From positions 1-24,009 of the IMG/VR virus record IMGVR_UViG_3300043427_001421: DNA of 24,009 nt, one strand, 5' to 3'. Below, in pieces: positions 1,593-16,111 of the stretch. Within the stretch, counting starts at the first letter, position 1; each line of letters begins with the position of its first letter. A program made the translations under genes and the position numbers. The notes under the pieces are model-generated. The model ran no database searches, had not been told where the DNA came from, and was given only the letters and a program-made list of their open reading frames with translations. This DNA is from a virus.

Positions 1593-4418
1593 GTGGCTTC
1601 GTATCCCGCCGTAATCGAATTACGCGTAGATGGGATCACGCAAGTAACGCGAGTTTTAGACAGCATCGACAAGCTGGATAGAGCACTCGTAAGCATAAAG
1701 AAAACGCCTCTAGCTATAGACTCTAAAAATGCAACAGATGGTATTCGTGTATTAAAAGACGAAGTAGATAAATTTATTATTAAACTTGGAAAAGGTGAAA
1801 CACAACTTGCAGCTACAACTGCAGGCGTAAACGCCCAGGCTGCAGCATTTAAGAATCTTGCGGCCAACGCAAAAATAGGCGGACAAGCGTTTAAACTATA
1901 CACACAAGCCACCGAACAAGCTAGACAAAAATCTACACTTGCTGGAGGTTTAGCTGAGATTGCAGCTCTACGCAGCGGATACCAAGCGGGTCGTACTGCC
2001 CCCATGCAATCCTTCATGGGTACACAAGAACTAATTAAATTTGCCGCACAAATACCTAAAAATACTGCTTCACTTGAACTATATAAAGCAGAACTACAAC
2101 GAGTATTGACCGTAGTTGACTACGGCACAAAAGACTACCGCGAACTCGAAGCAGCTATTGCCGGTGTAAATAAACAAATACAAATAGGTCAAGGTTTAGG
2201 TCCTGTACAAGGACCTGTACGACCTGGAGTAGGAGTAAGCGGTGGAGCACGAGGTAGACAAGCAGGTGGAAGCAGTCGATTCGCCGGAGCTATCAGCAAT
2301 GCTGTGATTGGTGGATCTTTTCCACTTCTGTTTGGTCAGTCAGGAGGAGCCGCCGTAGGCGGTGCCGTCGGTGGTATAGCCGGAAGTTTGCTAGGTCCCG
2401 GAGGAGGATTCGCAGGTTCTTTGCTTGGTACCTTGCTTGGTGAAACAGCATCTAAAGGTGAAAAAATAAAAGAATTAGCGAACGATATCGGTTTTACCGT
2501 AGAACAGACTAAACGTTTACAAGAAGCATTTGCTTTAGCAGGACGTGACTCCGAAAAATTTACTGCGTCTGTGCAAAATATTCGAGGACTTAATCTTAGC
2601 CTCGAAGACCAAGCAGATGCAATAAATCTTGTTGCTAACCTTACAGAAATATACAAAGGAAGAATCGACAAAGTTGCTAGCGCGTTTGCGACCGCTGTAG
2701 CGAACGGAAAAGTTACACAAACTACCTTAAATCAATTAACAAAAGAAGGCATAACTATACAGGATGCACTCGCTAAAAAATACGGAGTCAGTCAAAGTAA
2801 AATTCTACAGATGGCTAAAGACGGAACAATTTCTGTCCAAGATTTAATAGATACTTTAGTAGAACTCGGCAATGTTGCTCAAACAGAAGCAACAAAAACC
2901 GAAAAAAGTTGGGCAACTGCCTGGGAAGATTTGCAGCGTGGAGCGGGGCTTTCTCTGCAAGCAACCGTAGCAGTTTTTAATGCTATTACCGGTGCTGGTA
3001 TACAAAGTAGTGGTAATATAGCGGCTGATTTTGCTGCGATGTATGTCACCTTAGTTAAAGGTGCCATTAACATGGCAGAACGCGTCTCGCGCATACTTGC
3101 TAATCTTTCACGAGGTGGCGCCAATTTAGCTGCTACTTTTAGTTTAGGTGGTATAAATCCTTTTCCAAAAGCAGCGTTGGCAGGATTTAAGCAAGCAGAA
3201 CAATTTTTTAGTAAATTAGATGCAAATCTTCAAGGTATAAATCTGGAAGAGCCTCAAAGAACTAGAGTTGGTGCCATAACTGCTAACGGTCAATTACCTT
3301 CTCAAGGATCTGATGCGCGTAGTGGTAGATCAAAAGTTGATAGAGCCGCCGAAGAGAAACAGCGTCTAGATGCTTTACTTAAACAACTTAACGAAGAAAT
3401 TAGAATCCGCACAGAAAGTATAGGTCTAGAAGAAAGCCTGTTGAATGCACGTGCAGATCAAAATGACGAGTTAGAAGCTCAAATTCAGTCCAGTATGCGT
3501 CTGCTTGAAATCGGCAGCAAGCAGGCCGTAGTGCAGAAAAATTTCGATGCTGGCCGTATCGGACGTGCGGAGTACACACTCCGTTTGCAGCTACTGGAAC
3601 TGGACAGAACCGAAGATCAAATCAAATATGAAGAAGACTTAAACCGTATTTTCAAAGAACGCTACGGGATTACCGATGCTTTGGCGCGGCTATCTAGAGA
3701 AACTCGTGCCGCCGCTTTCGGTGGTACTGGCGCTACAGGAACATTTAGAACAGATATAAATCTTATGCCTGGGCTAACAGGCGGGCTTTTAGGTGAAGAG
3801 TACGACGAAGTTAAAACACAGCTAGACGAGTTACTTAAAATTGAAAATCAAGTTGCTAGTGCTGCTGACACTATCGGCCAAGCTTTTGGTAACTCGTTTA
3901 AGGGCATTCTCAATGGCACATTATCTGCACAGGAAGCTTTAGCTGGTTTCTTCAGTTCTGTTGCCGACTCCTTCGCTGACATGGTGTCGCAGATGATTGC
4001 ACAGTGGATACGGATGCAGATAATCGGTTTGGCACAAAGTTTACTTCCTGGCGGTAGCACTGTTTTTCCGCAAGGTGTTGGCAATTTCTCCGGCGCTTTT
4101 GGGTCTGCGAGCTCCGTTTCTTTTAATCCGGGCGTAGCTTTCGGTGGTTTTAGGGCTGCCGGCGGATCAGTTACGGGAGGAACGTCTTACATGGTGGGCG
4201 AGCGTGGCCCTGAACTGTTCGTGCCAGGTCGCAGCGGCACCATCGTCGCCAACGACAAGATGGGTGGCGGCAACACCAATGTGGTGGTCAACGTAGATGC
4301 CAGCGGTAGTAAAGTAGAAGGCGATGAACAGGAAGGTAAGCAGCTCGGTCGCGTGATCGCCGCTGCCATCCAGCAAGAGCTGGTCAAACAGAAGCGCCCC
4401 GGAGGACTGCTCGCATAA
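1593..4418 (+). CDS. Tail tape measure protein, gpH-like
   Basis: This 941-residue protein sets tail length and is ejected ahead of the DNA. An α-helical N-terminal part is followed by a glycine-rich hydrophobic stretch at about residues 230-290 (SNAVIGGSFPLLFGQ, then repeated GG/GA pairs). Long helical charged segments follow at about 570-680. A typical lambda-family C-terminal region comes next, with AFGNSFKGILNGTLSAQEAL and later SYMVGERGPELFVPGRSGT near residue 870. The start is GTG at 1593, chosen for its position just after the terminator. The stop overlaps the next ATG (TAATG). Base composition is odd: most of about 1680-3480 and 3730-4170 is AT-rich (bases 1741-1800 have 15 G+C of 60), while the gene ends and neighbours are GC-rich (4201-4260 has 38 of 60). 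This suggests recombination with a low-GC relative. Confidence 0.93.
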   Translation: MASYPAVIELRVDGITQVTRVLDSIDKLDRALVSIKKTPLAIDSKNATDGIRVLKDEVDKFIIKLGKGETQLAATTAGVNAQAAAFKNLAANAKIGGQAFKLYTQATEQARQKSTLAGGLAEIAALRSGYQAGRTAPMQSFMGTQELIKFAAQIPKNTASLELYKAELQRVLTVVDYGTKDYRELEAAIAGVNKQIQIGQGLGPVQGPVRPGVGVSGGARGRQAGGSSRFAGAISNAVIGGSFPLLFGQSGGAAVGGAVGGIAGSLLGPGGGFAGSLLGTLLGETASKGEKIKELANDIGFTVEQTKRLQEAFALAGRDSEKFTASVQNIRGLNLSLEDQADAINLVANLTEIYKGRIDKVASAFATAVANGKVTQTTLNQLTKEGITIQDALAKKYGVSQSKILQMAKDGTISVQDLIDTLVELGNVAQTEATKTEKSWATAWEDLQRGAGLSLQATVAVFNAITGAGIQSSGNIAADFAAMYVTLVKGAINMAERVSRILANLSRGGANLAATFSLGGINPFPKAALAGFKQAEQFFSKLDANLQGINLEEPQRTRVGAITANGQLPSQGSDARSGRSKVDRAAEEKQRLDALLKQLNEEIRIRTESIGLEESLLNARADQNDELEAQIQSSMRLLEIGSKQAVVQKNFDAGRIGRAEYTLRLQLLELDRTEDQIKYEEDLNRIFKERYGITDALARLSRETRAAAFGGTGATGTFRTDINLMPGLTGGLLGEEYDEVKTQLDELLKIENQVASAADTIGQAFGNSFKGILNGTLSAQEALAGFFSSVADSFADMVSQMIAQWIRMQIIGLAQSLLPGGSTVFPQGVGNFSGAFGSASSVSFNPGVAFGGFRAAGGSVTGGTSYMVGERGPELFVPGRSGTIVANDKMGGGNTNVVVNVDASGSKVEGDEQEGKQLGRVIAAAIQQELVKQKRPGGLLA

Positions 4419-13703: not shown

Positions 13704-13973
13704 ATGATTGAAGTAGTTGCCGCCATCGCTGGCGCATCAATCAGTGTGGCGGCAATGGGCGCCATGGGTTTTAGCCGCAAATCCGACGAAGCCCGCGACG
13801 CTGTAATCCGATTAACTAGCGCGGTGGAACACATCGCCACCCAACTCGAAGTCCTCCACACCGACATCAAAGAAGACCGTAAAGAAACATTTCAACGCTT
13901 GAACATCGTCGAACAGCGCGTCGTCAAGCTAGAAGCCAGAGACAAGTGGGACGGCAACGACCGACGCAGCTAA
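13704..13973 (+). CDS. Small membrane-anchored coiled-coil protein
   Basis: This 89-residue protein has an N-terminal hydrophobic segment (residues 2-23: IEVVAAIAGASISVAAMGAMGF) and then a charged helical stretch (about 25-80: VEHIATQLEVLHTDIKEDRKE, then RVVKLEARDKW) with heptad spacing, ending in a basic/polar tail. It probably spans the inner membrane once with a cytoplasmic or periplasmic coiled coil. Its place before the lysis genes would fit a spanin- or holin-related role, but no lipobox is visible and similar proteins in cyanophages are uncharacterised. The stop overlaps the next ATG (TAATG at 13971-13975). Confidence 0.7.
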   Translation: MIEVVAAIAGASISVAAMGAMGFSRKSDEARDAVIRLTSAVEHIATQLEVLHTDIKEDRKETFQRLNIVEQRVVKLEARDKWDGNDRRS

Positions 13974-14164
13974 TGGAATCCAACGTCGTCAGCATCCGAG
14001 ATTTAGGCCAAGGCTTCACCATCGAGCAACTGGAGAACGAAGCCGGCCACATTTTTTACCGCATGTGCCGAGGCAGTGTGTGCCGGTACTGCGAGGACGA
14101 GTACATGGCCTACATGTACGCCGAGGGTGCAGGCTGGGACCGCCTATCACTGGCTGATCCATAG
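13973..14164 (+). CDS. 63-residue protein with cysteine cluster
   Basis: The ATG at 13973 overlaps the stop of the upstream gene, and this start is preferred over an in-frame one at 13946. Residues 32-40 contain CRGSVCRYC, which could bind a metal, followed by EDEYMAYMYAEGAGWDRL. No family is recognised. Its last 18 bases are shared, antisense, with the end of the HNH gene. Confidence 0.65.
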   Translation: MESNVVSIRDLGQGFTIEQLENEAGHIFYRMCRGSVCRYCEDEYMAYMYAEGAGWDRLSLADP

Positions 14165-14458
14165 CTTGATTGCGTCTTCGAGGTGGGGCTCCCAGAAGTG
14201 CTGCGCCCGAAACCACGACAACCAATCGCTGCACGAGCCCTTACTCATGTTGCAGGCGTAACAGCACGCCAACAGATTGGAGCGCCTGGTTTCTCCACCT
14301 TTCGATTTCGGCCTGACGTGATCGAGCGTGCCTGACCTACCTAACGGTTCCCGGCAGTAGGCACACTTGTTATCCCAAAAGTTAAGAATGTGTTGTCTAA
14401 ACCGGGCTTTAGCTTCTCGTTTATTAAAGAATTCAGTGCCGTCGATGTAGTGTTCCAT
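14147..14458 (-). CDS. HNH endonuclease
   Basis: This 103-residue protein is a single HNH nuclease domain. Zinc ligands are C32/C35 (NKCAYCREPL) and C66/C69 (CCYACN). The catalytic core is D46-H47 (GTLDHVRPKSKGG), N61 and N70, with asparagine in place of the third residue (HNN type). It lacks a DNA-recognition domain, so it may be a homing-type or free-standing nuclease. The ATG at 14458 is chosen; an in-frame TTG at 14497 would add 13 residues. It is the only gene on this strand in the late region, lying between two + strand genes, which is typical of a mobile intruder. Confidence 0.85.
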   Translation of the reverse strand: MEHYIDGTEFFNKREAKARFRQHILNFWDNKCAYCREPLGRSGTLDHVRPKSKGGETRRSNLLACCYACNMSKGSCSDWLSWFRAQHFWEPHLEDAIKLWISQ

Positions 14459-14517
14459 GTGGGCACGGCTCTGTAGTGAATTTAGCCAAAAACCCAAGCT
14501 GCTACTTGCTTCTTACC

Positions 14518-14557: not shown

Positions 14558-14698
14558 ATGGATTTTCTGTCCCATCCGGCCTTCTGGATCATCGTCGCTG
14601 CTGCCAGCGAACTGATCGCCCTTAGCCCTCTCAAGAGCAACAGCATCATCCAACTGGTGCTGCAGATCCTGAATCTGATCAAAGCAAAAAAGGTCTGA
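14558..14698 (+). CDS. 46-residue membrane peptide, possible holin
   Basis: The product begins MDFLSHPAFWIIVAAASELI and has a hydrophobic segment over residues 3-22, then ALSPLKSNSIIQLVLQILNL, a second hydrophobic helix, and a basic end (IKAKKV). Two short membrane helices and a lysine-rich tail upstream of an endolysin fit a holin, but phage membrane peptides of this sort in cyanophages are mostly unassigned. The gene ends GCA AAA AAG GTC TGA, placing a slippery heptamer just before the stop. The -1 frame continues as good coding sequence to 14937. Confidence 0.72.
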   Translation: MDFLSHPAFWIIVAAASELIALSPLKSNSIIQLVLQILNLIKAKKV

Positions 14699-14937
14699 TC
14701 GGTTTCGGCAAACCAGGCTGGCAGCGCAAGTTAGAGCGAGTCATCAACGACTGGTGGTTCTACAAAACGCTGCCGGCCAAAATCGACAAGGCCGAAGCCG
14801 ACTGGCACGCAACCCAACCACCCATGACAGCACCACCTGTCGTGGTCGAGCATCCGGTAGACGAAAGCCAGCAGACTGGTGACAGCCGCTTGTTAGGCGG
14901 TCCAATAAGTATCCACGCACCCTGGCGCCGTGACTAA
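14558..14937 (+). CDS. Predicted frameshift fusion: membrane peptide plus soluble tail
   Basis: Slippage at 14686-14692 gives 45 residues of the membrane peptide joined to 81 residues read from 14692 (GLIGFGKPGWQRKLERVINDWW, and so on) to the TAA at 14935-14937, 126 in total. The extension is basic and aromatic at first (FYKTLPAKIDKAEADW), then proline-rich (QPPMTAPPVVVEHPV), ending IHAPWRRD. Its codons resemble those of its neighbours, and ordinary start codons occur only well inside it (ATG at 14823). The fusion would be a membrane-anchored protein with a cytoplasmic or periplasmic tail, produced at a fixed ratio to the short peptide. Alternatively, the downstream frame starts from an unusual codon. 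Its end overlaps the endolysin start. Confidence 0.58.
14686..14692 (+). other. Candidate -1 frameshift site (A AAA AAG)
   Basis: In the frame of the 46-residue peptide the bases are A AAA AAG, the strongest known bacterial slippery heptamer. It sits one codon before the TGA. A 5-bp stem with a tetraloop (GGTTT 14701-14705, CGGC, AAACC 14710-14714) starts eight bases after the heptamer, within the usual spacing, although five pairs is weak. The -1 frame is open from here to 14937 and has no standard start codon near its beginning. Confidence 0.65.
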
Positions 14938-16111
14938 CAAGATCCGCTTAATTGATCTCTTCCGGTATTACAAGGCGTTGCCCCATCAGATGGCCGCCAT
15001 CACCGAACTGGAAGAAGTCATCAACCGGTCCAACCCCCACATTTTCGGGCGTGAACAGGGCTGGTTCAAGACCTGGAGTCAGGCCGGCAAACAACAGGAC
15101 TACACCCCTGCCGTAAAACTAATCAAAGAGTTCGAGGGTTGTCACCTTAGTGCCTACCCCGACCCGCTCCACGGCTGGGATGTAGCCACCATCGGCTTTG
15201 GAACAACCCGTTACTCTGACGGCCACAAAGTCAAACAGGGCGACAAGATAACGGTCGCTGAGGCCGAACGACTTCTACTCCAGGAAGTGGAGCGCATCGC
15301 CAAATACCTATCCACCAAGATTCCGCACTGGGGCGAAATGCGCGTGACACAGCAGTCCGCGTTAATCAGTTTCGCGTATAACCTCGGCAGCGATTTTTAC
15401 GGTGCCATCAACTTCCAGACCATCACAAAAGCACTTGCCAACAAGCAGTGGGACAAAGTACCAGCCGCCTTATTGCTCTACTGCAACCCTGGTACGTCTG
15501 TGGAAGCCGGGTTGCGTCGTAGGCGTGAAGCAGAGGGCAAAATGTGGGCCCAAAACACGGTGATTCTGCCTAACCAGAGCACGGCATCGGCTGTGAATCT
15601 GAAGGTTCCGTACGAGTACCAGCTCGACAACGGTCCCACCGGTTACCGGGAGTGCTTCAGTTCCAGTTGCGCGATGGTTGCCCGCTACTGGGGCAAGATC
15701 GCCGGGGACCACGAGTACAACCGGATCCGTTGCCGGTACGGTGATTCGACGGACGCCAAGGCCCACATCATGGCCTTGAAGACTCTGGGCCTCCGTGCCA
15801 CCTTCGAAATGGAGGGCACGGTCCAGATACTGGAGGGCGAGATCCGCTCGGGCTACCCCACACCTGTGGGTTGGCTGCACAAAGGTCCAGCTAATGCCCC
15901 CACAGGTTCCGGCCACTGGAGCGTGGTGACCGGCTTCACGTCCACGCATTTCATCCACAACGACCCAAATGGGGAGGCGGACATCACAAACGGTGGCTAC
16001 GTTAACCACAAGGGAGGTGCGGGCATCGCATACTCCAGACGAAACTGGTTGCGGCGGTGGCTAGTTGATGGCCCCCAGTCGGGCTGGTACATGAAAATCC
16101 GCCCCGTCTGA
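14930..16111 (+). CDS. Endolysin: GH24 lysozyme fused to C39-type peptidase
   Basis: This 393-residue lysis enzyme has three parts. Residues 1-60 are a helical leader (IRLIDLFRYYKALPHQ). Residues 61-206 are a GH24 phage lysozyme with E69 in EFEG, D78 in YPDP and T87 in VATIGFG, matching the T4 lysozyme E-8-D catalytic spacing. Residues 225-393 look like a C39-family cysteine peptidase: C247 in SSSCAMVARYWG, H329 in SGHWSVVTGF and D345 in HNDPNG. The first enzyme cuts the glycan chain; the second could cut the peptide stems, or serve in binding if inactive, though its triad looks intact. No signal peptide is seen, so a holin is needed for export. The start is GTG at 14930, overlapping the previous frame. 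Confidence 0.9.
   Translation: MTNKIRLIDLFRYYKALPHQMAAITELEEVINRSNPHIFGREQGWFKTWSQAGKQQDYTPAVKLIKEFEGCHLSAYPDPLHGWDVATIGFGTTRYSDGHKVKQGDKITVAEAERLLLQEVERIAKYLSTKIPHWGEMRVTQQSALISFAYNLGSDFYGAINFQTITKALANKQWDKVPAALLLYCNPGTSVEAGLRRRREAEGKMWAQNTVILPNQSTASAVNLKVPYEYQLDNGPTGYRECFSSSCAMVARYWGKIAGDHEYNRIRCRYGDSTDAKAHIMALKTLGLRATFEMEGTVQILEGEIRSGYPTPVGWLHKGPANAPTGSGHWSVVTGFTSTHFIHNDPNGEADITNGGYVNHKGGAGIAYSRRNWLRRWLVDGPQSGWYMKIRPV

Follow-up and report, generated by a model that had tools for sequence, protein, structure and literature searches.

How is the small membrane-protein gene that precedes the endolysin gene in this viral genome decoded, and does the reading frame that continues past its stop codon in the -1 register belong to the same product? 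The window analyzed is the whole 24,009-nucleotide stretch of IMG/VR virus record IMGVR_UViG_3300043427_001421 (positions 1 to 24,009), and the original prediction had read the locus as a probable programmed -1 frameshift joining a membrane peptide to a soluble tail. Comparison of related sequences led us to conclude that this gene, which codes for a small membrane protein in the lysis region of cyanophages, is very probably decoded by programmed -1 ribosomal frameshifting. The features of the window are as follows.

13704-13973, + strand: small protein with a membrane segment and a coiled coil; PHROG 26178, with a weak match to the XhlA-like 'hemolysin' PHROG 937; it probably shares one lysis region with the frameshift gene
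14558-14698, + strand: membrane peptide, the 0-frame ORF of 46 amino acids, starting with ATG at 14558; PHROG 22542, with no function annotated
14686-14692, + strand: slippery heptamer A AAA AAG, one codon ahead of the 0-frame TGA and kept in relatives
14692-14937, + strand: -1 frame extension, an 81-codon tail (long helix plus small C-terminal module) with its TAA stop at 14935-14937
14930-16111, + strand: endolysin with a phage lysozyme domain and a C39-like peptidase domain; its GTG start lies within the last codons of the tail (GTGACTAA)

The sequence and coordinates of the membrane ORF, the heptamer and the -1 frame were re-derived and were correct as predicted. The ORF at 14558-14698 translates as MDFLSHPAFWIIVAAASELIALSPLKSNSIIQLVLQILNLIKAKKV and ends with the codons ATC AAA GCA AAA AAG GTC TGA, which place A AAA AAG in the X XXY YYZ register relative to the 0 frame. 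After a -1 slip on the two lysine codons, reading would continue with GGT CTG ATC for 81 codons (14692-14934), and the predicted fusion has 45 + 81 = 126 amino acids. The -1 frame had been described as open to 14937 without a standard start at its beginning, and its first ATG, GTG or TTG is indeed the ATG at 14824, in the middle of the tail. Ribosomes that remain in frame would read AAA AAG and stop one codon on, yielding the 46-residue membrane peptide. A share of ribosomes would slip one base backward on A AAA AAG as two lysyl-tRNAs re-pair, bypass the stop and add 81 residues, which would give a 126-residue protein with the same membrane anchor and a helical tail. We infer the synthesis, amount and topology of this fusion.

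Relatives were gathered by tblastn with the fusion, four IMG/VR scans, one GTDB genome scan and the addition of named phages. The 293 sequences obtained were reduced to 199 non-redundant members with distinct sequence around the stop, which comprised viral contigs, a few MAGs and named Synechococcus sipho- and podoviruses. The IMG/VR part consists of at most 80 matches per scan and leans to the best ones; counts across members are not independent because the members are related. The profile used to detect the tail was trained on heptamer-bearing members. The same two-frame layout was found by tblastn in Synechococcus phages S-CBS3, S-CBS1, KBS-S-2A and S-EIV1, and the membrane peptide was matched in podoviruses 7B11-B, WH11-B and S-B28 and in uncultured phage S37-C6. 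Database records either omit the tail or give it an internal start and list it as a hypothetical protein of its own. The search for proviruses in the GTDB genome scan returned only four MAG contigs.

The heptamer was present in the 0-frame register, just ahead of the stop, in 163 of the 199 listed members. Among the matches listed, 160 members had both the heptamer and a homologous tail, 32 had neither, 4 had the tail only and 3 had the heptamer only (Fisher p about 4e-29, relatedness ignored). One of the three heptamer-only members, L140, matched the tail weakly and seems to be a member whose ORF has been disrupted. The 0-frame stop was 0 or 1 codon past the heptamer in every heptamer-bearing member, and heptamer, register, stop and -1 tail were all kept while the tails share only 20-30% identity. 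A search for the downstream frame in related phages had been proposed with the original prediction, and the heptamer and frame relation proved to be kept. Loss of the heptamer with both frames retained, named there as evidence against the frameshift, was looked for and found in four of the 199 listed members: L028 (GTA AAG), L154 (TCA AAG), L195 (TCA AAG) and L145 (TCG GGG AAG). Three of these keep an A AAG tetramer (NNA AAG) and L145 has neither element. Tetramers of the NNA AAG type are also found in IS elements and require a strong stimulator (PMC4066793). The kind of heptamer switches at least several times on the tree, and too few well-supported pairs were available when the tree was used to ask whether heptamer and tail had been lost together independently.

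Codon usage at the site points to conservation of the nucleotides themselves. The base preceding AAA AAG was A in all 143 cases, with 11 amino acids encoded at that position (codons GCA, CCA, GGA, GTA, CGA, AAA, TCA, ACA, CAA, GAA and CTA), and A was the rarest base before AAA AAG in other long ORFs of the same contigs (8 of 109). With the third base fixed and the residue free, the site is, by this measure, conserved beyond the need of the encoded residue. In the tail-less group around S37-C6 the same K-P-K-K end is written CCA AAG AAA or CCA AAG AAG; judged by their codons, tail-less members are a natural control for the heptamer. NNA AAA AAG was used in 140 of the 148 tail-bearing members having a terminal Lys-Lys, compared with 8 of 462 other Lys-Lys pairs (1.7%), and as a measure of chance, 14 of 1,160 other long ORFs (1.2%) carry X XXY YYZ in frame within their last codons. 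In S-EIV1 and a marine subgroup, G GGA AAG replaces A AAA AAG in the same register and is preceded by AAG, CCG or TCG; member L128 has A AAA AAC. The heptamers of listed members belong to the X_XXA_AAG kind, which gives the most efficient slippage on Escherichia coli ribosomes (PMC4066793).

The tail could instead be made as a separate protein if ribosomes started within the -1 ORF or re-initiated where it overlaps the 0-frame stop. It is annotated as its own gene from an internal start in S-CBS3 (gp22) and S-EIV1 (AHV82131), the tail of S-CBS2 resembles an overlapping gene of its own, and an internal ATG is present in many tails. However, in 112 of 163 tails the stretch reaching from 10 codons ahead of the stop to 15 codons past it contains no ATG, GTG or TTG, in 98 of 164 the stop is overlapped by GTA, CTA or TTA, which are unusual starts, and the heptamer is left unexplained. 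Separate initiation fails because 9 of the 55 tail clusters have no ATG, GTG or TTG across the entire -1 ORF, and we consider it highly improbable. A standard start of its own for the tail in relatives had also been named as evidence against the frameshift, and it is ruled out in those nine clusters.

RNA polymerase slippage on the A run would produce a mixed mRNA population with no shift by the ribosome, and six A's at most sites and up to nine in L121 and L125 speak in its favor. Six A's are few for slippage of this kind, G GGA AAG, with runs only three long, does not fit it at all, and tandem codon re-pairing accords with the register and with G as the seventh base; polymerase slippage is very unlikely. 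Two hypothetical ORFs in different frames could also suggest gene decay or an error in sequencing, but conservation already refutes this: isolates and many metagenomes contribute 55 tail clusters in which the -1 relation, the stop and the heptamer are found again, and the tail shows purifying selection. We give this reading almost no weight. Tandem ribosomal slippage explains the heptamer pattern, the start-less tails and the G GGA AAG swap together. Programmed frameshifting, as originally proposed, is thus strongly supported by the kept heptamer, register, stop and tail and by that swap.

A stem of five base pairs (GGTTT/AAACC) does begin 8 nt past the heptamer in the window, as had been noted, but its stimulatory significance did not hold up. 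The region around it showed no added stability relative to shuffled sequences (z = -0.67), and across the 55 tail clusters folding downstream of the heptamer (mean z -0.82) was close to that of a control 100 nt further on (-0.68), with no conserved stem-loop found. An upstream Shine-Dalgarno-like stimulator was also looked for, and no shared motif was seen among relatives. A stimulatory element is common but not obligatory for frameshifts of this class; with neither a conserved structure nor a Shine-Dalgarno-like stimulator, slip efficiency may therefore be low. The proposed event resembles the -1 frameshifts of dnaX and IS elements in the heptamer class (A AAA AAG), the tandem slip and the short and long products with a common N-terminus. 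It differs from them in gene and organism, in the stop that follows immediately and in that no stimulatory stem or Shine-Dalgarno-like element was found.

One homologous tail family occupies the -1 frame of all subgroups, and the tail profile matched that frame only, never the two other frames. Its consensus is P.DG..L...RS..E...R.I...KF..TLP.KLD.AE..W...QP......E...DG......LGG, and the end is often APW. Over 47 disjoint pairs, substitutions by codon position were 326/192/840 and the median dN/dS was 0.15, a pattern by which the tail is under purifying selection. At the level of sequence, selection is shown to maintain both products. AlphaFold modeled the tail as a 33-residue helix followed by a small C-terminal strand-helix-strand module (mean pLDDT 88). 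Pfam scans of the tails gave nothing above the cut-off and a structure search with the tail model gave no PDB match. The viral set of the structure search returned only an S-PM2 protein of T4-GC 852 and two fragments, which by their length fit annotated pieces of the frameshift family in S-CBS3 and S-EIV1.

Cyanomyovirus proteins of PHROG 3316, T4-GC 852 and T4-GC 410 (PHROG 6464) have a homologous C-terminal tail (98% profile probability) but encode it in one ORF without frameshifting. In cyanomyoviruses S-B68, S-CREM1 and DSL-LC03 that single ordinary ORF holds both a membrane segment and the tail; the T4-GC 410 proteins have a single-ORF tail with no clear membrane segment ahead, and a literature search for T4-GC 410 found no paper. 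Some phages thus make a membrane-anchored tail without a frameshift, and we therefore argue that the fusion is a functional product. In S-CBS2 (L294, 1169-1659) the annotation divides the membrane peptide and the tail between two genes that overlap in -1 relation and have no canonical heptamer, possibly a transition between the frameshifted and the separate-gene form. By homology, S-CBS2 and the cyanomyoviruses are diverged relatives with other solutions.

Whether the gene acts in lysis is a separate matter, which its position addresses in part. The original prediction placed it directly before the endolysin, and in the window the endolysin start overlaps the end of the tail. Of 164 tail members among the matches listed, 95 have an endolysin ORF directly downstream, within 1 kb. 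On the upstream side there is often an XhlA-like membrane gene, and in many siphovirus-type contigs the frameshift gene is directly between the XhlA-like gene and the endolysin; in S-B68 the single-ORF form is one gene from the endolysin. Podovirus relatives have an endonuclease or terminase gene next to it instead of the endolysin; there the location between tail fibre and terminase matches the place of holin gene 17.5 in T7. In the membrane peptide a single strong hydrophobic helix precedes a weaker amphipathic helix, and in its small size, its membrane helix and its closeness to an endolysin the gene product is as expected of a holin. The membrane peptide matched no Pfam or PHROG holin profile and fell only in PHROGs with no function assigned.

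From position, we put the involvement of the gene in lysis at about an even chance. The most likely role, again with roughly equal prospects of being right or wrong, is joint action of both forms at the membrane during lysis, for example as a holin-like peptide and a regulatory or endolysin-linked partner; for a direct holin and regulator pair our expectation is a little under one half. The pairing of a holin with a membrane-anchored regulator, suggested originally, thus stays plausible by position, while the holin profiles and the podovirus neighborhood do not favor it. Alternatively, the frameshift may be real and the gene unrelated to lysis, encoding, for example, a virion or membrane-remodelling protein that merely adjoins the endolysin. 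Neighbors in podoviruses and cyanomyoviruses (endonucleases, terminase, gp3 or uvsY rather than the endolysin) and the lack of a holin profile match are consistent with this, and we consider it a substantial possibility somewhat short of even. The location between the XhlA-like gene and the endolysin in many siphovirus-type contigs, the small membrane peptide as product and the place of the S-B68 form argue against it.

If the gene does act in lysis, a comparison can be made with lambda S, the dual-start holin/antiholin. The likeness would be two forms of one small membrane protein beside the endolysin; here they differ at the C-terminus through frameshifting, whereas the lambda S forms differ at the N-terminus through two starts, and holin function is putative here. 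An anchor followed by a long helix also fits loosely with an i-spanin, which has an N-terminal membrane helix, a periplasmic helical domain and a lipoprotein partner.

The endolysin start offers a further link. The GTG at 14930 is inside the end of the tail ORF, and in the 96 cases examined the final 40 bases of that ORF held a candidate endolysin start. Slipped ribosomes would therefore terminate at the endolysin start, and those that do not slip would end about 230 nt before it in the window. Of the scored endolysin starts, 82 had no upstream Shine-Dalgarno match, although the window and a few near relatives were scored at a later ATG despite the overlapping GTG. Slipped ribosomes ending over the start codon may thus also feed endolysin translation by coupling, which is only a hypothesis because gene overlap is common in phages. 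In a tentative and rather unlikely scheme, the frameshift would be a translational lysis timer that sets the ratio of holin-like peptide to tailed regulatory form and feeds a poorly initiated endolysin start, with one site proportioning all three. As cited in PMC10885494, the lysis gene of MS2 is reached after frameshifting in the coat gene, with frameshifted ribosomes terminating at the lysis-gene start. On that account, the slip in MS2 is rare, non-programmed and in another gene; here the heptamer is conserved, a conserved fusion is predicted and the coupling is hypothetical.

The original prediction knew of no described frameshift of this kind in cyanophage lysis genes, and our literature search, which covered few subscription journals, likewise found no frameshifted holin and no cyanophage frameshift outside tail genes. 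To our knowledge, most of what is known of conserved programmed frameshifting in tailed phages concerns the tail assembly chaperones. The lambda G/GT frameshift (Xu, Hendrix and Duda, 2004, as cited in PMC3483164 and PMC10885494) shares with the present one, so far as those citing accounts go, a conserved -1 shift of tailed phages that takes place shortly before a small ORF ends, on a heptamer of variable sequence; here a membrane peptide beside the endolysin is concerned, in a different place and protein. Identity with the tail assembly chaperone was rejected: the gene sits after the tail genes and before the endolysin, and the tape measure gene is at 1593-4418. The present case would be a second widespread conserved frameshift of tailed phages, in the lysis region, occurring in sipho- and podoviruses of Synechococcus and uncultured relatives. 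It would unite two halves of a gene so far annotated as unrelated hypothetical proteins or omitted, offers a candidate holin and regulator for cyanophages, and would make lysis timing in ecologically important viruses directly testable by altering one heptamer.

Several other features of the window were observed. On the - strand, the stretch separating the frameshift gene from the XhlA-like gene holds an ORF (14147-14497) with the look of an HNH endonuclease, and in S-CBS4 (L172), too, an HNH gene is annotated close to the lysis genes and on the other strand. The endolysin (14930-16111) has, besides a phage lysozyme domain (PF00959), a peptidase domain of the C39-like/papain-like kind (PF13529, PF12385), a pairing that is unusual in an endolysin. 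By eye, its N-terminus (14945-15020, LIDLFRYYKALPHQMAAITELE) is similar to part of the tail (14740-14810, VINDWWFYKTLPAKIDKAEADW); homology of the two (FRYYKALPHQ vs. KFYKTLPxK) had a profile probability of only 16% and is a lead at most. Just before the tape measure gene, ORFs at 1012-1359 and 1389-1544 are in -1 relation, and the first ends GAC CCA AAA TCC TGA with C CCA AAA in slip register. The region 1012-1544 is a candidate for an ordinary tail assembly chaperone frameshift and is probably the first frameshift of the original prediction.
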